A stretch of 21,709 bases of DNA from a virus. The stretch is taken from the IMG/VR virus record IMGVR_UViG_3300030389_001335, positions 1-21,709 of that record; one strand, 5' to 3'. The translations under genes were made by a program, and so were the position numbers. The notes under the pieces are model-generated. The model did not search any database, was not told the DNA's origin, and saw nothing but the letters and a program-made list of their open reading frames with translations. Shown piece after piece: positions 276-18,856 of this stretch (its first letter is position 1; every line of letters starts with the position of its first letter).

Positions 276-1130
276 TTATCGGGCTGAACCCGATATATCA
301 TAGACAAACTTTCCTGAGCGGATAGCGTCCATAATTTCATCAGAACGAGCTTCATATTCTTGTGCAGACATACGTTGAACTTCTGATTCTTTTAGATAAG
401 AAGATGCCTCATTGTCTTGCGGCTTGCTTCTAGTATTTTTTGATGTGACAGCCTCTGCGGCATTGCCCTTTGGCTTTTTCTTTGTAGTGATGTTTCTGTC
501 TGACTTATACAAGTCAATAGCACGGGCAGCAGAGCGAGCATCATTGTCGTTCTCATAGAGTGCTTCCTGAACCCATTTAGGTTGTTCCGTAGCCCAGTCA
601 TGGAAGTCATCACTTTCCCGAATGTCATCAAAGTCAGGATGTAAGCGCATTAATTCTGCTTCTGCTTTTTCTCGCTTTGCATTGAACTGCATTTCGTCCA
701 CTGCCTTAAAACGATCTTCCAATTCTTTAGTTTGCTCTTGAGCTTTTTTGGCAGCAATAGTTTCAATAATAGCAGCAACATCTGGATAATTCCTTGCCCA
801 AACTTCTAGGTCTTCATCAGATTTGGGAAGCTGCATTTCTTTACGAGTGGCCGCATCCAGTTGTCCTTTAAGTTCACTTAGTTGATCTTGAAACTCTTTT
901 TCTTTTTCTTGCATATGACGCCGTAAATCGCCATATCTTTTCTTAAATGTTTTTTCTTCAGCAGAATCTGGCTGGGCTTCTTGCTCTTCACCCTCACCTC
1001 TTTGTTCTTTTAGAAGTTGCTCTAGCTCTTCTTCTTCTTTTTTTATTCTGTCTGCATTAGCATACGGTTTGGATACAAATGCTGTTTTTTTCTGTGGCTG
1101 CATTTCTTCAGCCATAATTGCTTCGTTCAT
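276..1130 (-). CDS. Capsid scaffold-like protein
   Basis: This 284-residue, highly charged protein is predicted to be mostly helical, with coiled-coil stretches at about 28-50, 63-95 and 123-160. The central region carries HPDFDDIR (164-171), then FHDWATEQP and AIDLYK blocks that I associate with marine phage scaffold proteins. The C-terminal third is rich in Lys, Ser and Asn, typical of scaffold tails that bind the capsid lattice. TAGGAGA precedes the ATG. The gene lies immediately upstream of the probable capsid gene. Scaffold proteins template procapsid assembly and leave before DNA fills the shell. No protease motif is visible. The function is inferred from composition and position. Confidence 0.72.
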   Translation of the reverse strand: MNEAIMAEEMQPQKKTAFVSKPYANADRIKKEEEELEQLLKEQRGEGEEQEAQPDSAEEKTFKKRYGDLRRHMQEKEKEFQDQLSELKGQLDAATRKEMQLPKSDEDLEVWARNYPDVAAIIETIAAKKAQEQTKELEDRFKAVDEMQFNAKREKAEAELMRLHPDFDDIRESDDFHDWATEQPKWVQEALYENDNDARSAARAIDLYKSDRNITTKKKPKGNAAEAVTSKNTRSKPQDNEASSYLKESEVQRMSAQEYEARSDEIMDAIRSGKFVYDISGSAR

Positions 1131-1195: not shown

Positions 1196-1408
1196 TTAAC
1201 GTGCAGCCAAGCCACGTCTGCCACGATCTGGTCGTGACGATTCAATGTCAATGACAGACATAAGTTCACTGCCAAGGACACGCCCAATGGCGCGAATTTG
1301 TGGTGTGCCAATTAGACTTTGAATAATTTCTCTATCTTCATCATTTAAATTATCAAAACGACGTTGAACAGCTTTTTGATAATCAGCAAGTGTTGGTTGT
1401 CTAGCCAC
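1196..1408 (-). CDS. Small conserved phage protein, 70 residues, GTG start
   Basis: I start this gene at the GTG at 1408 because AAGGAG lies 6 nt upstream. The longer reading frame from 1447 has no such site and would run through the end of the preceding gene. The overlap with that gene is 8 nt. The product begins MARQPTLADYQKAV and continues with a helical region containing DEDREIIQSLIGTPQIRAIGRVLG. It ends with a basic tail, RPDRGRRGLAAR. I do not recognise a domain. It sits between the GNAT-like gene and the scaffold, so a virion or assembly role is possible but unproven. Confidence 0.7.
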   Translation of the reverse strand: MARQPTLADYQKAVQRRFDNLNDEDREIIQSLIGTPQIRAIGRVLGSELMSVIDIESSRPDRGRRGLAAR

Positions 1409-1889
1409 TTTTTTCTCCTTCACGAATCCAATATTGCTCTTCGTCAATAATCCATTCTAAATCGTCATATTGATCATCTGTTAAATTTTTCAAAAAGGTT
1501 TGCACTTCACTTTCCGCTAATGTCATGTCGTGATATTTTACATACCTTTTTTGTAGACCTGTATCTTTGGTTGTTGTAAAAACAAGCGTCATGTCTTTTT
1601 GTTTTGCTAGTTCAAACACACCATCGACACACATTTTTATTGCTTTGTGTGCTTGCTTCATGGGTGCGCTTTTGTCAACAACAAGCCACTCCATGAAAGA
1701 AAACTTAGTGCCAACCCCTATGTACAAACCTGCACCACAAATCGGCATTCCTTCGTTTTCAATTATTACACCATCAGGAGGTAGACATTCCTGCGGAACA
1801 ATTCCAAATTCCCAATCTTCCCACCACTTTACGAGTGTGGGGTAGTCTTTATTAAGCTGCCATAGACGTTTTTTTAACAAGTTCCTCAT
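1401..1889 (-). CDS. GNAT-like acyltransferase fold protein
   Basis: The 162-residue product has the layout of a compact GNAT N-acetyltransferase. A strand pair covers VIIENEGMPICGAGLYIGVG (41-60), followed by SFMEWLVVDKSAP (64-76). The helix that normally cradles acetyl-CoA follows at about 77-96, and TLVFTTTKDTGLQKRYVKY (101-119) corresponds to the last conserved block. The canonical Q/RxxGxG/A loop is not clear, so catalysis is uncertain. The start overlaps the end of the large structural gene by 38 nt and has AAGGA directly against the ATG, which is unusually tight. A TTG 9 nt further in is an alternative start. Proteins of this type occur in phage structural operons, but their substrate is unknown to me. 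Confidence 0.6.
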   Translation of the reverse strand: MRNLLKKRLWQLNKDYPTLVKWWEDWEFGIVPQECLPPDGVIIENEGMPICGAGLYIGVGTKFSFMEWLVVDKSAPMKQAHKAIKMCVDGVFELAKQKDMTLVFTTTKDTGLQKRYVKYHDMTLAESEVQTFLKNLTDDQYDDLEWIIDEEQYWIREGEKSG

Positions 1890-4800
1890 TCCTTATTTTC
1901 ACGTTTTCTTCGCTTTCTTTTGCGCCATTTTCACGCCAATTATCGAAGAAGTCGTCACCAGTGTCTAGCAGTCTTTCTTGTTCAGTCACTTCAAAGTAGT
2001 CAGTGAATATAGTATCGTTAATCATAATGCGCCTGTTTTCAGAGCCGAAGATATAAACAATCGTATCTTCATCGCTGATAAACTTACCCTTGCGACTATC
2101 CTTAACTCGCACCCATGCATCGTCCTCTAGCACCATGTGAGTGCCAGATACTTGAATGCCATCATAGTCATAGATAGAATCTACTAAGAACCGGCCTGCG
2201 GCAAACACAAAGCCACCAAGCATAACCTCATCACCAATGTCAACTTCTTCAACTGGTTTGGTGCTTCCGTCTTTCATGGTAATAGGTGTTCCTTTTACAA
2301 AACATCCGTCATCACTGTCATCTTTCTCTTCTTTAACAGTCGTTTGTGTTGGCTTTGACCAATCGTGATCATCCGAATAATAAACTTTATTATCTTCAAT
2401 TTTAGTTGCGGTTCCTTGATCATCGCGAACACGGTCGTCTTTAAAGCCGTGCTTGTTGGCTAAATCCAGTTCTTGTTGTCTTTGTCTTTCTTCAAATCTC
2501 TTCTTTTCTTCGGCAGCTATACGGTCTTGCTCTGCCTTCTTTACTCGTTCTGCTTCTGCTGCTTCAGCGGCGGCAATGCGCTCTTGAGCTTCCCGCCTTT
2601 CTTTTGCTCTAGCAGCATCTTCAGCAATACGTGCGGCATCCGCAGCAGCTTGTTGCTCTGCTTTAGCTCTATCCGCTTCTTCAGCTTGACGACGCAATTC
2701 ATCTTGCCGTCTCATTTCTTCCGCATCACTAAAGTCACGCTGTGCCTGCGCCTCTACCTCAAAAGAAGAGGGAGCCGATGGTCTTGGATTCATTATGCCC
2801 AACGGATCGAGTCCAGCCGGTTGAATGGGCGTTGTTTCTCGTGGTGGCGCTGGCGGTGGGCTAAAGCTTTCATCCATCGTGCTACCAGAAATTGCCTGCT
2901 GTATTAGATTTTGTGTTGTCTGAATTGGTGTCGGTGTAGACTCAAACGCCGCTCCTTCGTCCAACGATGGGTCACCACTAATCGCACCAGAGAACTCTGG
3001 CGCAGTGTATGTCCCTGGAGTTCCTCCAACAATTGTCCCTGCAGGTCGAGTTGTAAATGTTACATCACCCGTACCAAATTCTGGATACGGTATGCCGTCA
3101 GGGGTTCTTGGGAACTGTGGTCCCTCCGTAGTAAACGGACCTGTATCAGACGGAGTAAAGTCTGGTGCTGGTTGTCCAGTTCCTGTTATATCTTGTCCTT
3201 CAAAACCAAGCGCCCCCATTTGTGTTGCTGCCGATGGCCGTGGTGGTGGCGCAACAGGCATTACTGTTGGCACACCCGTTTTAGTATTCAGAGCGTCTAA
3301 GAAATTATCATACTTGTCTTTTTGCACATCGTTAAGCGTACGATATGCGTTGGTATTTTTATTTCCAATAAAGCCACCACGCCATCCAGACTCATTACCG
3401 GCAGAAATAACATTAAAGTAATCTTCACGATTACCATAGCTTGCATCTGCACCTTTACCTACAGCCTCGCCAGTAAATGGATCAATGGCGATACCATGAA
3501 TATTAAAGACGCCACCAGTAGCCGCATCTAAATCGCCCGGTTCAAGTCCTATATTGCCGGTAATAGGCACTTGTAAATTTTCCATAGCTTGTTCACGTGC
3601 TTTCATAACTTCAGCAGTCGGTGGACCCATTGTTTGTTTTTTACCGCCTATAGTTACTTCATCACCAATGCCAAAGGGAAGAAGCGCACCAAGGTTAAAG
3701 CCGCCGCCACCCGTGATGCCAAGCTTGGCTCTGGTGTCCTGAATTTTTTTAGCTCTTGCCCGCTCTTTTGCTACTGCCGCTTCTGCTTGCCCCTCACCAT
3801 CGTCCTTCTGTTCTGTTTGTGTCGTCGTGGTGGTTGTAGTCGTTTCCTCTGCTGTATCTTCCGCTGTCGTAACAGGCTGTGGGAAGAAGCCGTCAGGGAT
3901 CGGATATAAAGGCTGGCCACCAAAAAATGGAATTTGAATTAGTACACCAGCATCATTTACATACGGACGTAGCTCTGTAGTGAAAGAGGAACCCCCACCA
4001 GAGGTACCCATGAGATCACTATAGGTTGGAACAACACGCGCTGTGTCATCTTCTTCCTCTCGCTCCTCAAGCTGGTACGGATCATCCTCTACAGAACCAC
4101 CCTCTTGCATCATCATTACAGGCGTTTCATCTTCAAGTTCAAGATCAGAAATGTCAAAAGGAATATCGTCAGGTAAAATAGCTTCGTCACTATTACCCAT
4201 CTGGCCCATATCTTCCATGCGCTGAAGACCTATTTTCGCCCTCTGCCGCATTTTCATCAAAGTTTCAAGACCATAATATCTAACTACGTCGGCAGGAAAT
4301 ACAAATTCGCCCTCACTTAGCTGCGCCGGAATATCGTCGCGAACTTCTTTTTTAAGAGAGCCTACTGGAACATCATTACCAGAGATAGGATCAACAGAAC
4401 CACCTTCATCTTTTAGTCCACCCTCATCAAAGAGGTCCATTTGTCTACGCATCGAAACGTCTCCACCTTCGTTAAAACCTATCCCAGTGCCAGGTATGAC
4501 CAACCCCATACCAAACAAACCCTTCTTTTCTGGTTTGCGTACTGTTAATTTTTGTCCCGTCTTAATTAAGTCTGGGTCTTCAATCTGAGGGTTCATTGCT
4601 AATAGCTGATCCACAGACATATTTTGTTCTTTTGCTATTTTACTTAAAGTATCGCCCTGCCCAATAGTCCGCATTTCTCTATCGGAATCTATAATGGGCA
4701 GAGCGGCTTCTTCATCTTTTTTCACAGCGACTGTAGTCGTGGGGATAGCATCAATACGACTACCACGTAATTTTTCTCTTGCTGCTTGTAAATCTACATT

Positions 4801-5214
4801 TGTATCTAGGTCAATCCTAGAAAGTTCAATGGCCTCATTGATCATTGAAAAATCGTCTAAGTCTTTTCCTAAATATGTAGACTCTGTTGCGTCACTATTT
4901 TCCATTCTAACAACGGCAGCAACAGCTTTTGCTAAGTTTTCTTCAGTTATTTTATTATCACCAATTTGGCTTTGCACATAATTGGCGTATTCTCTAGTTT
5001 TATTCTCATTAGCAGGAGCGTATTTTGCAATTACTTGATTAATATCGCCATCAAATTCCTTCATTTTAGAACGAAGATCATAAGCTAAAGCACGTAATCC
5101 CATCTCAGGAGAACTAAATACTGCAAAGCGTCCCTTACCATACGTTTGGCCAGTTTCGCCTGCGTATCCTTGTCCTACTTCAATATTGCCGGGGTTATTA
5201 TATACTGTTGCCAT
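1852..5214 (-). CDS. Large virion protein: NNPGNI muramidase-like domain, LysM, coiled coil, C-terminal Hint
   Basis: The 1120-residue product starts at the ATG at 5214, with AGGG 7 nt upstream. A longer frame from 5334 would add an unrelated hydrophobic leader read from inside another gene. Residues 6-85 contain YNNPGNI, a FAVFSSPEMGLRAL block and YAPANENKTREY, the pattern of a phage peptidoglycan-cleaving virion family. A LysM peptidoglycan-binding domain follows at about 182-226. Next come GEFVFPADVVRYYG (302-315), Thr-rich and Pro-rich linkers, and a long Glu/Arg/Ala coiled coil (about 825-912). The C-terminus is a Hint domain starting at Cys971 in GCFVKGTPITM, with the block-B Thr-Xaa-Xaa-His equivalent SGTH ending at His1026. 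I infer an internal or tail-tip protein that attacks the wall during DNA entry. Whether the Hint cleaves or ligates cannot be read from sequence. Confidence 0.8.
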   Translation of the reverse strand: MATVYNNPGNIEVGQGYAGETGQTYGKGRFAVFSSPEMGLRALAYDLRSKMKEFDGDINQVIAKYAPANENKTREYANYVQSQIGDNKITEENLAKAVAAVVRMENSDATESTYLGKDLDDFSMINEAIELSRIDLDTNVDLQAAREKLRGSRIDAIPTTTVAVKKDEEAALPIIDSDREMRTIGQGDTLSKIAKEQNMSVDQLLAMNPQIEDPDLIKTGQKLTVRKPEKKGLFGMGLVIPGTGIGFNEGGDVSMRRQMDLFDEGGLKDEGGSVDPISGNDVPVGSLKKEVRDDIPAQLSEGEFVFPADVVRYYGLETLMKMRQRAKIGLQRMEDMGQMGNSDEAILPDDIPFDISDLELEDETPVMMMQEGGSVEDDPYQLEEREEEDDTARVVPTYSDLMGTSGGGSSFTTELRPYVNDAGVLIQIPFFGGQPLYPIPDGFFPQPVTTAEDTAEETTTTTTTTQTEQKDDGEGQAEAAVAKERARAKKIQDTRAKLGITGGGGFNLGALLPFGIGDEVTIGGKKQTMGPPTAEVMKAREQAMENLQVPITGNIGLEPGDLDAATGGVFNIHGIAIDPFTGEAVGKGADASYGNREDYFNVISAGNESGWRGGFIGNKNTNAYRTLNDVQKDKYDNFLDALNTKTGVPTVMPVAPPPRPSAATQMGALGFEGQDITGTGQPAPDFTPSDTGPFTTEGPQFPRTPDGIPYPEFGTGDVTFTTRPAGTIVGGTPGTYTAPEFSGAISGDPSLDEGAAFESTPTPIQTTQNLIQQAISGSTMDESFSPPPAPPRETTPIQPAGLDPLGIMNPRPSAPSSFEVEAQAQRDFSDAEEMRRQDELRRQAEEADRAKAEQQAAADAARIAEDAARAKERREAQERIAAAEAAEAERVKKAEQDRIAAEEKKRFEERQRQQELDLANKHGFKDDRVRDDQGTATKIEDNKVYYSDDHDWSKPTQTTVKEEKDDSDDGCFVKGTPITMKDGSTKPVEEVDIGDEVMLGGFVFAAGRFLVDSIYDYDGIQVSGTHMVLEDDAWVRVKDSRKGKFISDEDTIVYIFGSENRRIMINDTIFTDYFEVTEQERLLDTGDDFFDNWRENGAKESEENVKIRNEELVKKTSMAA

Positions 5215-5419
5215 CGCTATCCCTGACTTCGGTTCTAAGATTGGTAAGACGACGCAAAGCAGCAATAGCGCCTTGAGAACGGTACACCAATATGTCATTT
5301 TCTGCTTGCTCCAACGACTTTTGTTGAAGCACAATCAGTTCATCTAAATATTTACTGAACTGTTCCCACTGCTTGTGGTTCACCAGCGGCTTCAGCTTGC
5401 TGAGTCGTTCCTTGGTCAT
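5198..5419 (-). CDS. Small helical protein overlapping the portal gene's 3' end
   Basis: This 73-residue product is predicted to be almost entirely helical (KQWEQFSKYLDELIVLQQKS, then AAIAALRRLTNLRTEVRD region). I use the ATG at 5419, with AAGGA about 10 nt upstream. GTG codons at 5425 and 5440 are alternatives, and the last gives 80 residues. It overlaps the portal stop by 68 nt and the next start by 17 nt, so it is translationally linked to both. Similar short helical proteins often follow portal genes in marine phages. The function is unknown; a portal-associated or adaptor role is only a guess. Confidence 0.75.
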   Translation of the reverse strand: MTKERLSKLKPLVNHKQWEQFSKYLDELIVLQQKSLEQAENDILVYRSQGAIAALRRLTNLRTEVRDSDGNSI

Positions 5420-7472
5420 TCGCACTAAATCCTTGTTCACCCGGTACAGGTGCTTGTCCTACACCGATTGTTCCTCCACCTGCCCCTGTCGGGTCTGCAG
5501 CATCAGCCCCTGCAGGTGCGCCAGCTTCAGCTTGTGCTGGTTGCTGGAATGCTTTGAGAAGTTCTGCTTGCAACGAAGCTTCATCCATATTGTTTGTGAC
5601 CTTATCAGGGTCAAGATCAAGCGACTTTGCAATCTCTCTAATAATATACTGAAACTTTGCAAACGGTGCAAGAGCCGGATTACTAGCAATTTGTAAAAAT
5701 TGCATGAGTCGTTGGCTACGAACTTCATTTGCCATAAGGCTTTCAGTACCACGCGCCTTAACTTCTAAATCTCCTTTAATTTCAGGATCAAAGTCAAATT
5801 GCATGTTAAAGCGGAAAAAGCCCTCACCAAGAGGACGAAGGAGGTAATCATCCACATTTTTGATGACGTTCTTTGTGCCACCCGCTGCGGCATTCATCAA
5901 CATTGAAATACCACTAGCTGTGCGACCAACTCCGCTAATACCCGTCTGTCCATGTGCAAAAGACGGGAATCCTGTGCTTTCATCTGAAAGCTGTCTTGCC
6001 TTGTCAAACAACATCATGTTTTCACTTGACACATTAGGAAACTTTGTGCCAAAGATTGCCTGACCAGGTGCGCCACCTTGACGCCTAAACACTTTGCCGG
6101 GATACAATGCTAAGTCTTGCCCCGGCACAAGATTTGTTTCATCAACCTCTACAATTAGATTGCCAGACAACACGGCATTATCCACCGCCATGCGCATGAA
6201 GCCATTCATTAGCGTTTGCGTGTCGTCCATATTTTCGGCAATACCTACACCAAAAAAGCTGTATGGGTTTAGTTCATAGGGCGAGGCGTGGTACGGTATC
6301 TTTGCCGGTTTAAACGGATTTAATACGACCCGCAAAAGTTTACCATTACAAATCCAAATATTTGCTTGTAGCTCATCAAAGTCTTTTAGTTCTTCTGGAA
6401 TCTCTACACCTTCAACTTCAAGCATCTCTGTGTCAATGGTTCCCCAATACTCAAGAACCTCAAAACGATCAACACCATGCTCTGGAGCGTAGTCTGCAAG
6501 ATCGTCTTCCCAATACTTTTTAGTATAATTTTCACCAATGTCGATTACTTCATCAATTACATTGCCCCGAAAATAAGGTCGCTTCTTTAGCTGACGTAAT
6601 TGACTACGCGACATTTTGTGACGTTCAATTACAAACTGGGCCTCGTCCATATTATTAGCGTCAGGGTCAGGATAAAAATTCCAAACGGACACATGAGAAA
6701 CTTGCGGCACGGTTTTAAAAAGCGGGTCATAAGAACCTTCCTCATCCCAATTAGGATATTCTTTATCAATGGCAAATGGACCCTTAATCACACCTGTGCC
6801 GAAAAGCGCCATCTCAAACGCCGTGCTACGCAAATGCTTGTTTGCTCCAGACTCTTCTAGTTGATCGTGGATTTTTTTCTGCATGGACTTAGCAGCAACC
6901 ATAGCAGGACTAAACGTAATCGCTGTCGCTGTTGTGCCAATGCCTTTTTCAAGAGTTTCGACATCCTGAAGTTTTTCAGTCAGGGGGCCAAGGCTGTCCA
7001 TCAAAGATTGTTGCGTTGCACCGGCAGGAAAATCCTGTCCGTCACCCTCAAAACCATACGGGCTATCAAGAGGATCACGAAGCTGTTCTGGCTTTTGTGG
7101 ATCAAAATTAACGTCCGCAACCACCCCGTCAGGAAGTTCCGTAGGCTCAATAGACAAAGGAAATTTGTTATTGGCAAACAGCACGTCAACAATTTGCCCG
7201 TAAGCAGCGAGTGTTTTTGTTTTCGTTACTTTAATAAATACACGAGACTTTTCAGCTTCGGTGAACTGAACGTCAGGACCGTACAAACCACGGTAGTTTC
7301 TGTAGGATTTAATCCATCGCTCTTCATCTTGATATCTGTAATCTTCAGCGCGAGTGTATAAAGACTGAACGTAACCAATCAATCCAGAAACTTCTATGTC
7401 TGAAACAGTGGTATCCTCACTATCTGTTAACGCGATAGCGTCTGTCTCCATTGGGATTTCATCTTCATCCAT
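5352..7472 (-). CDS. Portal protein
   Basis: The portal forms the dodecameric ring at one capsid vertex through which DNA is packaged and ejected. This 706-residue product has the architecture of podovirus-like portals. It has an acidic N-terminus and a helical YRYQDEERWIKSYRNYRGLYG block. The clip/wing region contains VSVWNFYPDP and FVIERHKMSRSQLRQL, and the stem region PYSFFGVGIAENMDDTQTLMNGFMRM. The crown has GVGRTASGISMLMNAAAG and LLRPLGEGFFRFNMQFDF. The final roughly 60 residues are a low-complexity Ala/Pro/Gly/Gln tail. AAGGA lies 8 nt before the ATG. The gene follows TerL with an 11 nt gap. Gene order and motifs agree well. Confidence 0.88.
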   Translation of the reverse strand: MDEDEIPMETDAIALTDSEDTTVSDIEVSGLIGYVQSLYTRAEDYRYQDEERWIKSYRNYRGLYGPDVQFTEAEKSRVFIKVTKTKTLAAYGQIVDVLFANNKFPLSIEPTELPDGVVADVNFDPQKPEQLRDPLDSPYGFEGDGQDFPAGATQQSLMDSLGPLTEKLQDVETLEKGIGTTATAITFSPAMVAAKSMQKKIHDQLEESGANKHLRSTAFEMALFGTGVIKGPFAIDKEYPNWDEEGSYDPLFKTVPQVSHVSVWNFYPDPDANNMDEAQFVIERHKMSRSQLRQLKKRPYFRGNVIDEVIDIGENYTKKYWEDDLADYAPEHGVDRFEVLEYWGTIDTEMLEVEGVEIPEELKDFDELQANIWICNGKLLRVVLNPFKPAKIPYHASPYELNPYSFFGVGIAENMDDTQTLMNGFMRMAVDNAVLSGNLIVEVDETNLVPGQDLALYPGKVFRRQGGAPGQAIFGTKFPNVSSENMMLFDKARQLSDESTGFPSFAHGQTGISGVGRTASGISMLMNAAAGGTKNVIKNVDDYLLRPLGEGFFRFNMQFDFDPEIKGDLEVKARGTESLMANEVRSQRLMQFLQIASNPALAPFAKFQYIIREIAKSLDLDPDKVTNNMDEASLQAELLKAFQQPAQAEAGAPAGADAADPTGAGGGTIGVGQAPVPGEQGFSANDQGTTQQAEAAGEPQAVGTVQ

Positions 7473-7483
7473 GTGATTTTTCC

Positions 7484-9046
7484 TTAATAACCAAAGGTAT
7501 TATCCGCTACTTGCATACCTGTCGATGGTCTGCCTTGGGGGTCATAGTCAAAAATAGAGAACCGGGGTCTGGACATAATACCGTACCGGAGCGCATCGTA
7601 AAGATGGTCTTCAGACCTTGTGTCAACATCCTCTGGATTTCTCTTATCCAAGGGGATAGACGGTATTTGTGATATGACATTTGTGCAGCTACTAAAGAAT
7701 ACAAGACGCGGTTCCTCTGTAAATTCATCTACCTGTAGGCGACGATGAATCTCGTTCTTGCCAGACACCCTACTGCCTCTACTCCTATCGGATGGACGCC
7801 ACCGGCATCCTCTCTGTATCATTTGTTCAGCTAGGCTAGGACCAGTATCGCCACGCTTATGCCAAAGACTACTATCAAGTACACCATACTTAATGTTACC
7901 ATCTCCAGCTTCCAAGTCAATAATTTGATCTGCAAGATCGGTAGCAAGTACTTTTGATACGTACAACTCACGATAGACAATAAGCTGTTCAGAAGGTGAT
8001 ACAGCAAACCAAAGGACGCCACTAAAGCTACCATAGCCATAATCACAAGCCCTAAACTTAACCCAATTATTAGGAATGGAGAAAGGCTCAACAACATGAA
8101 TATCGCGATTAAACTCTGTGAAAGCCGCACCCTCTTTGATATCCCAATCACCTTCAAGAAGTTGCCGTCTCTGTTGTTCGGGTAATGACAGAAGCATTGC
8201 TTCGTAGTCACCAGATTCAGCAAGGTATGGATTATCTGTCAGACGCGCTGGTATAAACCGCCGCTTGAACAGAGGCTTTCCTGCTTTGGAATGTCCTGCA
8301 GGATAGCGCAATATTTCGCCTGTTTCTATATCTGTCGCTTCAAAAGACTGATTGAAAGGTGCCGGATCAATAAACATCTTTTTGACCCACTGATGCCCCC
8401 TTCCTCCAGGGTTAGTCGTAGCCCTCATAAAGATGGGCAAATCAGGGGCAGTGGAGCGTAGACGACTTCGCATATAGTTCCATGCGTAGGGCGTAGCCCA
8501 TTGTGTAAGTTCGTCAAAGCCTATCCAGCTAAATGCCAGACCCTGATAACGAAGCACGTCCTCATCCCTGTCTAGGTAGGACATCCACAGCCTCGCTCCA
8601 GATGGCGCGGTCCACTGCATCTTTCTCTCTGACCACTTGATACCGGGCCAAATCTTCGGATACAACTCTTGTGACTTGAAAATAAGTTCACGAAGTTCTT
8701 CTGTTGTATGTCGAAGTAGCAATCCACTAAACTGTGGATGGCCCAAGTACCGCAGGGGGTCAGCTAACATTGCGTAGCTTTTACCACCACCAGCACTACC
8801 GCCGTACAAGCACTCTCGCTCACTAGCGGCAAGGAACTCTGTCTGTGGCCCTGGGTTGGGCCTAAACAGTACATTGGCATGTTCCGCTATAGAACTCTCT
8901 ACAGGCTCTCTATCCTCAACTTTCGGCGTTTCTACGCTTGGCTCCAAGACGGGTGTCTTCGATTTCTTGCGCCTTGGCGATTGCCTTTTCCGCATACTCT
9001 GCCCACTTGCGGAGGCTTGCAGCTTGGTTCTTACGCTGTCGCTCAT
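7484..9046 (-). CDS. terL: Terminase large subunit (packaging ATPase/nuclease)
   Basis: This motor protein cuts concatemeric DNA and pumps it through the portal. The ATPase domain shows Walker A YGGSAGGGKS (81-90), Walker B ending in Asp178-Glu179 (SWIGFDEL) and the ATTNPGG coupling motif (209-215). The RNase H-like nuclease domain shows Asp335 in RACDYGYGSFSG, Asp391 in VLDSS, and the DHLYDALRYG block (480-489) that supplies the third acidic residue. The 520-residue length is normal. The first 55 residues are basic and Pro/Ser-rich and overlap the preceding gene by 131 nt. A weak AGGA lies 13 nt upstream of this ATG, so a later start remains possible. Confidence 0.95.
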   Translation of the reverse strand: MSDSVRTKLQASASGQSMRKRQSPRRKKSKTPVLEPSVETPKVEDREPVESSIAEHANVLFRPNPGPQTEFLAASERECLYGGSAGGGKSYAMLADPLRYLGHPQFSGLLLRHTTEELRELIFKSQELYPKIWPGIKWSERKMQWTAPSGARLWMSYLDRDEDVLRYQGLAFSWIGFDELTQWATPYAWNYMRSRLRSTAPDLPIFMRATTNPGGRGHQWVKKMFIDPAPFNQSFEATDIETGEILRYPAGHSKAGKPLFKRRFIPARLTDNPYLAESGDYEAMLLSLPEQQRRQLLEGDWDIKEGAAFTEFNRDIHVVEPFSIPNNWVKFRACDYGYGSFSGVLWFAVSPSEQLIVYRELYVSKVLATDLADQIIDLEAGDGNIKYGVLDSSLWHKRGDTGPSLAEQMIQRGCRWRPSDRSRGSRVSGKNEIHRRLQVDEFTEEPRLVFFSSCTNVISQIPSIPLDKRNPEDVDTRSEDHLYDALRYGIMSRPRFSIFDYDPQGRPSTGMQVADNTFGY

Positions 9047-12272: not shown

Positions 12273-12339
12273 TCTTTTTGTGAACTCCAGGTCTACGGAT
12301 GCGTTTACGCCCAATCTTTACGTGTGTCTTATACGCCAT
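12232..12339 (-). CDS. Basic 35-residue microprotein
   Basis: The product begins MAYKTHVKIGRKRIRRPG and is about 40 percent Lys/Arg. Its ATG overlaps the end of the SET-domain gene by 11 nt, within the same operon. The KIGRKRIRRPGVHKKN pattern is one I recall in tiny marine phage proteins, which supports it over the overlapping out-of-frame reading frame. No strong Shine-Dalgarno sequence is visible, so translation may be coupled to the SET gene. A nucleic acid-binding role is inferred from charge only. Confidence 0.65.
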   Translation of the reverse strand: MAYKTHVKIGRKRIRRPGVHKKNVNKRNKPKTHFG

Positions 12340-12694
12340 TTATATCTCTGCTATCCCAATAGTCCTCGCCATAGTCGTGAAAGATTTCATCATTCTGTTT
12401 TATATTCTGAACAGCATAAAACTGCACAAAACGATTGTCCTCTTCTAAAACTATCCACTCTGCATTTGGTGTACTACTGTGATTGTACACCATTCCATAT
12501 CCTAGCGGGATAAGAAACTCCTCAACGTCTTCGTTAGGTGATTGAAACATGTAGTTATGTAAGATACAGTCATCTCCCACGTCAGTGTCATCCGCGACCA
12601 AATAAGGACACAACTCAATCGTATCTCCGACTGCGTAGTCCTTATCAGCGAATACACCATGCCCATGAATTGAGGAATCAGAGACATAGGGCAT
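12329..12694 (-). CDS. SET-domain protein, putative lysine methyltransferase
   Basis: SET domains move a methyl group from S-adenosylmethionine to protein lysines. This 121-residue protein has the core signatures in order. SIHGHGVFA (8-16) matches the GxG-type SAM motif. VYNHSSTPNAEW (69-80) matches the NHxxxPN knot. IKQNDEIFHDYGEDYW (98-113) matches the GEE(I/L)xxDYG motif with its substrate Tyr. There are no pre-SET or post-SET zinc sites, as is usual for short viral and bacterial members. The ATG shares a base with the stop of the Met/Gly/Lys repeat gene. A Lys-rich substrate encoded next door is an appealing but untested idea. Confidence 0.82.
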   Translation of the reverse strand: MPYVSDSSIHGHGVFADKDYAVGDTIELCPYLVADDTDVGDDCILHNYMFQSPNEDVEEFLIPLGYGMVYNHSSTPNAEWIVLEEDNRFVQFYAVQNIKQNDEIFHDYGEDYWDSRDINGV

Positions 12695-17830: not shown

Positions 17831-17970
17831 TGGATGAAGGCTTTGAGTTTGACGGTATATGGATTACCGACAGAACTAAAACACCGTGTGGCAGGTTCGA
17901 CCTGTCGCCGGAACAATCTGATGAACTGTATGGAAAGGACGATACAGATGAATGTACTATCACTGTTTGA
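17830..17970 (+). CDS. Acidic 46-residue microprotein upstream of the methyltransferase
   Basis: The ATG overlaps the preceding stop (TAATG) and the frame ends 23 nt inside the methyltransferase gene. It reads MDEGFEFDGIWITDRTKTPC, then GRFDLSPEQSDELYGKDDTD. The acidic, single-domain look contrasts with the basic neighbours. Its tight overlaps support translation. A possible link to the methyltransferase is only positional. Confidence 0.62.
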   Translation: MDEGFEFDGIWITDRTKTPCGRFDLSPEQSDELYGKDDTDECTITV

Positions 17971-18856
17971 CGGTATGTCCTGTGGACGTATCGCTCTAGA
18001 CAAAGCTGGCATCAAGGTAGACAAATACTTTGCCAGCGAGATTGACAAGTATGCAATCAAGGTTGCCAAGGCAAACTACCCTGACACGGTACACGTTGGG
18101 GACGTACAGGAAATCCAAGCCGCGGACGTAGGCGAAATAGATTTGCTGATCGGTGGCAGTCCGTGCCAAGGCTTCAGCTTTGCTGGCAAGCAACTCAACT
18201 TTGACGACCCACGTTCCCAACTGTTTTGGGAGTACGTGCGTCTACTGCGAGACTTGCAACCCAGCTACTTCCTGTTGGAGAATGTCAAGATGAAGAAGCA
18301 GTCAATGGATGTCATCACTGAAGCATTGGGTGTCGAGCCTGTCTTCATCAACAGTAGTCTTGTGTCGGCACAGAACAGGCAACGCTACTACTGGACAAAC
18401 ATTCCGTTCACCATGCCAGAGGACAAGGGCATTGTGTTGCAGGATGTTCTTGAGGATGGCTGTGTTGATCGTGACAAGTCACACTGTTTGGACGCCAACT
18501 ATTTCAAGGGTGGCAATCTCAAGCAATACTTTGAGAAGCATCGTAGGCAACTTGTGTTCAGCAAGAATGGCATGTGTCATGTCGGTGACGCTGACATCAA
18601 TGGCAATGACAATATCAAACGTGTGTATCATCCTGCTGGCAAGTCACCCACACTGACTACCTCGTCAGGTGGACACAGACAGCCGAAGACATTTGTGCCG
18701 CCGAATTCTTGGCGCAAGCTGACACCATTGGAGTGTGAGCGTTTGCAGACTGTGCCGGAAGGCTACACCAACCATGTGTCCAACACCCAACGCTACAAGA
18801 TGCTTGGCAATGGCTGGACTGTGGACGTTATCGCACACATCTTGAAAGGAATGTAA
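17948..18856 (+). CDS. C5-cytosine DNA methyltransferase
   Basis: The 302-residue enzyme transfers a methyl group from SAM to cytosine C5. Motif I is SLFDGMSCGRIAL (5-17). Motif IV is GGSPCQGFSFAGK (69-81) with catalytic Cys73. Motif VI is LLENV (109-113), and motif VIII is AQNRQRYYW (141-149). Motif IX is KLTPLECERLQTVPEGYT (257-274) and motif X is MLGNGWTVDVIAHIL (285-299). The target-recognition part lies between about 165 and 250. I start at 17948, after GGA; the longer frame is antisense to nothing but lies in the microprotein. No restriction enzyme is visible, so it may be an orphan protecting phage DNA or altering host DNA. Confidence 0.95.
   Translation: MNVLSLFDGMSCGRIALDKAGIKVDKYFASEIDKYAIKVAKANYPDTVHVGDVQEIQAADVGEIDLLIGGSPCQGFSFAGKQLNFDDPRSQLFWEYVRLLRDLQPSYFLLENVKMKKQSMDVITEALGVEPVFINSSLVSAQNRQRYYWTNIPFTMPEDKGIVLQDVLEDGCVDRDKSHCLDANYFKGGNLKQYFEKHRRQLVFSKNGMCHVGDADINGNDNIKRVYHPAGKSPTLTTSSGGHRQPKTFVPPNSWRKLTPLECERLQTVPEGYTNHVSNTQRYKMLGNGWTVDVIAHILKGM

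Follow-up and report, generated by a model that had tools for sequence, protein, structure and literature searches.

The window analyzed here is the 21.7-kb virus record IMGVR_UViG_3300030389_001335, in which one gene encodes a protein of 1120 amino acids (aa) of the type found in Puniceispirillum phage HMO-2011 (HMO-type). This protein ends in a Hint domain, and a downstream gene encodes a smaller protein with a predicted GNAT fold. Our preferred reading, to which we assign a probability of roughly 60%, is that the Hint domain actively processes its own protein in concert with the downstream GNAT-fold protein, and that the two form a portable C-terminal cassette of phage structural and entry proteins. 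What is new is the pairing of Hint with GNAT; the Hint domain itself is already known, and its chemistry is an N-to-S acyl shift at its first residue, Cys1. The elements of the pair are located in the window as follows.

Positions 1852 to 5214, minus strand: HMO-2011-type protein with C-terminal Hint domain (1120 aa; ATG at 5214, stop at 1852)
Positions 1990 to 2304, minus strand: Hint core, residues 971–1075, with C971, S1023-G-T-H1026 and D1072 (AlphaFold2 and Foldseek; conservation)
Positions 2302 to 2307, minus strand: predicted scissile Gly970-Cys971 junction (−1 Gly and Cys conserved among relatives)
Positions 1855 to 1989, minus strand: tail after the Hint core, residues 1076–1120, a predicted helix (conserved FF.NW...NV..LN pattern)
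Positions 1401 to 1889, minus strand: 162-aa GNAT-fold partner (AlphaFold2, Foldseek and gene linkage)

The C-terminal Hint domain

Based on its profile, predicted fold and conserved catalytic residues, the C-terminal domain is a member of the HINT superfamily. AlphaFold2 modeled the C-terminal domain with a predicted local distance difference test (pLDDT) score of 80 overall and about 90 or more across most of the core; confidence was low in part of the tail (~45 residues). An earlier note, made from the DNA sequence alone, had proposed comparing a predicted structure of the C-terminal region with Hint folds. When Foldseek was run against PDB, the top matches were exclusively HINT folds. The first was BUBL1 BIL2 (6y75; E 1.9e-6, probability 1.00), a bacterial intein-like (BIL) domain from the BUBL1 locus of the ciliate Tetrahymena, and further top matches were the C. 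thermocellum BIL 2lwy, the gp41-1 and DnaB inteins, Hedgehog 6tyy and Vint 8r2c. In a single-sequence Pfam search, Hom_end_hint scored 23.5–28 bits, below its gathering score of 32.1, and the match spanned only the first 28 residues; the same family was matched by 40/40 aligned relatives. When a Hint profile was built from non-HMO phage relatives alone, the 1120-aa protein scored 213 bits against it (E 1.5e-65), whereas the best of 200 shuffled C-terminal stretches scored 9.7 bits.

We compared 114 distinct Hint sequences and aligned a subset of 100 for residue conservation. The equivalents of Cys971, His1026 and Asp1072 (Cys1, His56 and Asp102 of the domain) are invariant in all 100 aligned family members, and Cys occupies position 1 in 113/113 complete relatives. 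The residue before this Cys is Gly in 105 of the 114 distinct sequences, often preceded by poly-Gly. Block B (TxxH) retains its His in 100/100, and its first position is Ser in 90, Ala in 10 and never Thr. The C-terminal Hint domain with Cys971 and His1026 described in the earlier note is therefore borne out by profile, fold and conservation, with both residues at the positions given there.

The domain is C-terminal in every one of the 114 sequences, with ~40 residues from a D-Y-F motif to the protein end. Intein block G, with its C-terminal His-Asn, is not conserved in the family alignment, and HN or HQ occurs in just 10/114 tails. A canonical intein was rejected because the C-terminal His-Asn and the +1 nucleophile are both missing, and an A-type BIL was rejected because the C-terminal His-Asn of that type is absent from the window Hint. 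The earlier note was right about the missing His-Asn; a correction to it is that ~45 residues (1076–1120) follow the Hint core.

The family is widespread in uncultivated marine phages, with at least 148 relatives detected in an initial profile scan. Directly upstream of the C-terminal Hint, 22 of 148 sequences carry a complete further domain that is BIL-like and ends in His-Asn. Such tandem arrangements (BIL-like Cys ... His-Asn, then C-terminal Hint) were seen at loci L029, L031, L033, L048, L186 and others. Among isolated phages, a tblastn search with Hint gave no match and a second query gave only partial or intein block-A look-alikes; on this outcome, we rejected the possibility that the family is common in isolated phages. 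A genome collection contained six matches to the family, of which one was clear and five were short and partial. The clear match lies in a metagenome bin, on a contig that carries a phage-type Gly-rich Hint gene, and a cellular origin of the family was rejected on that basis.

Linkage to a GNAT-fold partner gene

The start of the partner gene overlaps the 3′ end of the Hint gene, and the partner was found downstream of Hint in 78/78 loci with sufficient downstream sequence (L092, flagged as a 79th locus, resembles Hint in the first block only and is not among the 78). Counted by distinct Hint sequence, 111/114 have a downstream GNAT gene, and the three exceptions are at contig ends; of 12 new Hint sequences from a third scan, 11 have the partner and the twelfth is at a contig end. 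In a reciprocal scan with a GNAT profile, Hint was upstream of 145 matches, and eight were flagged as being without Hint. One of these eight (L242) does have Hint ~2 kb upstream, the Hint status of another (L214) is undecided because its contig ends ~1.4 kb upstream, and the remaining six are distant relatives from Bacteroidetes or uncultivated phages. Within HMO-type loci, GNAT is present in 7/7 with Hint versus 0/76 without (Fisher p 2.4e-10). These linkage counts take no account of shared ancestry; the carriers span several unrelated protein groups. In larger phages, genes for an Asp/Asn beta-hydroxylase and a short-chain dehydrogenase/reductase (SDR) lie between Hint and the GNAT-like gene, and the linkage persists. 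Loci with this beta-hydroxylase-like/SDR insertion include L217 (3781–4999), L239, L241, L242, L194, L204 and L090. The earlier note had read the 1120-aa protein as a self-processing entry protein; the Hint identity stands, and the picture was incomplete in that the domain was taken as acting alone, though a GNAT gene follows in every testable case.

By sequence, the partner gave no reliable Pfam or PDB match, and its GNAT identity came from fold comparison: AlphaFold2 modeled it with a pLDDT of 90, and its Foldseek matches were all GNAT (E 1.1e-6), with PanD-PanZ entry 4cry among them. We aligned 100 partner sequences across motif A (R/QxxGxG/A, acyl-CoA [coenzyme A]). The last glycine position of the motif is occupied by H, F or Y in 100/100, and the commonest residues at the first position are K, N, T, I, L and Q, with no Gly. 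Cys51 and Tyr116 are invariant in 100/100. Based on the predicted fold and this alignment, the partner is a GNAT-fold protein without the GNAT CoA motif. GNAT distance correlates better with Hint tail distance than with Hint core distance (partial r 0.38 vs 0.20), which fits docking of the partner on the tail, albeit with tail and GNAT also being neighbors in the DNA. Residues 1076–1120 are a possible docking segment for the partner.

Carrier proteins and split VrlC genes

The Hint domain is carried by HMO-type, glycine-rich adhesin-like, VrlC/DUF4815 and other mutually unrelated protein groups. The earlier note had tied it to a wall-cutting entry protein; this specificity was rejected, as the majority of carriers are other proteins. 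Hint is one of several interchangeable C-terminal cassettes of the HMO-type family and is also found on unrelated virion proteins. The C-terminus of the HMO-type family is swappable: the last segment is a basic KMKRGGLASKK-like tail in many members, a Cys-starting domain in some and Hint in others. The Cys-starting domains follow a Gly-rich linker, and one, in a ctYwJ313 homologue, matches CFI-box-CTERM above the cut-off (52 bits vs 40). The N-terminal heads swap too, being of the NNPGN type in the window, Phage_lysozyme2 in L004 and others elsewhere. CFI-box-like Cys-starting domains occupy the position of Hint in HMO-type proteins at L012 (3861–6845), L158, L015 (5010–8750) and L173.

In VrlC-type (pelagimyophage-type) carriers, the Hint-GNAT cassette divides VrlC into two open reading frames (ORFs). 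The contigs with split VrlC are ~30–54% identical to HTVC008M, in which VrlC is one 2001-aa chain (L252, 2567–8572); relative to that chain, the N-halves end at positions 1456–1469 and the C-halves begin at 1477–1479. These splits may descend from a single old insertion. Split loci were observed at L061 (1228–8477), L239, L241, L242 and L247. Domain identity, predicted folds, conserved residues, strict linkage, varied carrier proteins and the split VrlC were all observed.

Proposed mechanism and alternative explanations

From these observations, we infer catalysis, a partnership of Hint and GNAT, and the outcome of processing. Cys971 would attack the Gly970 carbonyl in an N-to-S acyl shift, which would leave the flexible linker ending in a thioester. 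Because the C-terminal His-Asn is absent, splicing could not be completed and the thioester would have to be resolved in trans, by hydrolysis that frees the first 970 residues or by their transfer to an amine. In this step, the GNAT-like partner would most likely be a dedicated activator (PanZ-like) or a transferase, and it would probably dock on the Hint core or on the C-terminal tail. Release and attachment of residues 1–970 appear about equally likely, and the frame offered by the earlier note (an N-S acyl shift only, followed by release or attachment) remains correct, based on the Hint identity and the missing His-Asn. We favor a Hint-GNAT processing cassette because of Hint chemistry combined with the lack of His-Asn, and because of two precedents. 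PanZ, a GNAT-family protein, promotes the N-to-O acyl shift at Gly24-Ser25 by which PanD is activated (PMC4410942), and BUBL1 BIL2 forms isopeptide bonds without ATP, its Hint thioester being handed to a lysine amine (PMC8616854).

Several points weigh against the cassette. The pair is known here only through sequences and predicted folds, and the linkage and correlated distances may stem from common descent and from recombination of adjacent DNA. The majority of HMO-type proteins manage without it, and block B has Ser or Ala in place of Thr. The partner may also have a broader function, as phages of Cellulophaga, Tenacibaculum, Maribacter and Flavobacterium encode distant GNAT relatives next to structural genes, with no Hint there.

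Within the favored explanation, simple release is a credible outcome that falls short of an even chance. A PanZ-like GNAT protein would only trigger the N-S shift, and hydrolysis of the thioester would free the wall-cutting protein from Hint and tail as an assembly or packaging tag. This would follow the PanZ precedent, with the PanZ structure among the partner's Foldseek matches, and it suits a Hint placed C-terminally on a flexible linker, at a position that holds other cassettes in other family members. However, PanZ acts in a CoA-bound form, whereas the CoA-loop glycines are missing from the partner, and the virion location of the protein derives from synteny, not proteomics.

Covalent attachment is the other outcome of the favored explanation, and we put it forward tentatively. 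The acyl group would come from the Hint thioester, and the GNAT-like protein, which would no longer bind CoA, would pass it to an amine of a different protein (in the case of split VrlC, perhaps the C-half), making the pair a phage protein ligase. GNAT chemistry converts thioester and amine to amide, and BIL2 provides a case of isopeptide bonds built from a Hint domain; the motif A glycines of the partner are replaced in every aligned sequence, yet Tyr116 and Cys51 are invariant, and the VrlC halves are encoded on both sides of the cassette. The acceptor is postulated, however; the VrlC halves could associate unligated, and the loss of the CoA loop fits a non-catalytic scaffold as well. The fullest version is doubtful: an ATP-independent phage ligation in which Hint converts the protein before it to a thioester, from which a CoA-free GNAT-fold transferase hands it to an amine, joining virion proteins (including split VrlC halves) or tethering the particle to its target.

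An independent role of the GNAT-like protein in modifying or chaperoning virion proteins, with Hint and GNAT co-inherited merely as neighbors, is unlikely. The Bacteroidetes-phage relatives beside structural genes without Hint are consistent with such a role, but the two-way linkage is strict across different carriers, even with hydroxylase and SDR genes in between, and none of the 76 HMO-type loci without Hint has GNAT. That Hint is an inactive intein or BIL relic retained as a structural cap would accommodate the absent His-Asn and the complete BIL-like domain upstream in some relatives, but is improbable, as a cap would not require the Cys, His, Asp and −1 Gly that are kept across divergent sequences.

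Other features of the protein and window

The remaining features of the 1120-aa protein and its neighborhood are as follows.

Positions 4807 to 5199, minus strand: N-terminal YNNPGNI-type muramidase/transglycosylase-like domain, residues 6–136 (phrog_873 “endolysin,” E 2e-16)
Positions 4540 to 4668, minus strand: LysM, residues 183–225 (Pfam PF01476, E 1.9e-11, above cut-off)
Positions 4087 to 4458, minus strand: conserved central domain of HMO-2011-type proteins, residues 253–376 (69% identity to HMO-2011; family alignment)
Positions 2440 to 2742, minus strand: charged coiled-coil/linker, residues about 825–925 (TolA-like match; heptad-type charged stretch at about 820–925)
Positions 7484 to 9046, minus strand: terminase large subunit (context; profile matches)
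Positions 5352 to 7472, minus strand: portal protein, SU10 type (context; profile matches)
Positions 1196 to 1447, minus strand: small ORF with RGRRGLAAR at its C-terminus (its counterpart in HMO-2011 is a 65-aa ORF downstream of the HMO-type protein)
Positions 276 to 1130, minus strand: 284-aa protein at the HMO-2011 gp48 position, before the coat gene (context; phrog_13678, E 1.4e-68)

The wall-cleaving N-terminus, the LysM (previously placed at about 182–226) and the long coiled coil named in the earlier note were all recovered in these matches. Residues 6–136 also resemble virion lysozyme heads, e.g., gp16 of phage CR8. The 69% identity of residues 253–376 is to the HMO-2011 protein encoded between portal and coat, and the order terminase, portal, 1120-aa gene, small genes, phrog_13678 protein is that of HMO-2011. 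Roseophages such as CRP-1 share this order, with a syntenic unnamed gene between portal and coat. The 1120-aa protein is a putative virion protein on the basis of this synteny, not of proteomics.

Membership of the small ORF at 1196–1447 in the Hint-GNAT cassette is uncertain. A split-off C-terminus of the main protein was considered, given the likeness between its RGLAAR end and the KMKRGGLASKK tail of other family members, but HMO-2011 has a similar ORF without Hint. At L011, a small ORF between 8289 and 8559, after the main gene, has the same RGLAxR/KGLASK-type end, and such ends resemble the basic tail of other HMO-type family members.

Elsewhere in the window, a 121-aa ORF (12329–12694, minus strand) matches a SET domain above the Pfam cut-off (E 3.1e-11) and may be a phage-encoded protein lysine methyltransferase. 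A C-5 cytosine DNA methyltransferase (17834–18856, plus strand; Pfam E 1.1e-49) and a GP88 family protein (PF17338; 15941–16645, plus strand; E 6.9e-47) were also identified.

Comparison with known systems

BIL domains, including BUBL1 BIL2, share with the window Hint the HINT fold, an N-terminal Cys, and cleavage or transfer (predicted for the window Hint) instead of splicing, and BIL2 attaches its N-extein to amines. Unlike BIL domains, the window Hint lacks the C-terminal His-Asn, stands at the protein end, has a GNAT-fold gene as its fixed partner and occurs on phage structural proteins. Hedgehog Hog is a C-terminal Hint that uses the N-S shift only, without C-extein splicing, as proposed for the window Hint; however, the window Hint is of a different lineage and has a partner protein. 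In PanD-PanZ (PanM), the client's Gly-nucleophile bond undergoes a backbone acyl shift that is promoted by a GNAT-superfamily protein, but PanD is a pyruvoyl zymogen that undergoes an N-O shift at Ser and is not a Hint, and PanZ is CoA dependent. CFI-box-CTERM (NF041770) also starts with Cys, follows a Gly-rich linker and serves as an alternative C-terminal cassette within this phage protein family, but is unrelated to Hint; the window protein did not match NF041770, and the related motif NF041763 gave only E 0.74. Phage virion-associated lysozymes of the T7 gp16 type are large particle proteins whose wall-cutting head is of the NNPGN type, whereas the Hint-GNAT cassette and LysM are not part of that family. 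In the open-access literature on Hint with phage virions, GNAT, HMO-2011 or pelagiphages, we found no description of a Hint-GNAT pair, nor did we find a described Hint system with a fixed acyltransferase-fold partner or one serving as an interchangeable tail of phage particle proteins.

Implications

Because the two genes are so strictly paired, a direct test needs only two small proteins. Should the pair prove active, it would be a second case in which a GNAT-fold protein governs a backbone acyl shift, and it might provide a new ATP-independent tool for joining proteins; ligation, if true, would be categorically new. For phages, an active pair would be a new route to mature or covalently assemble their entry proteins.

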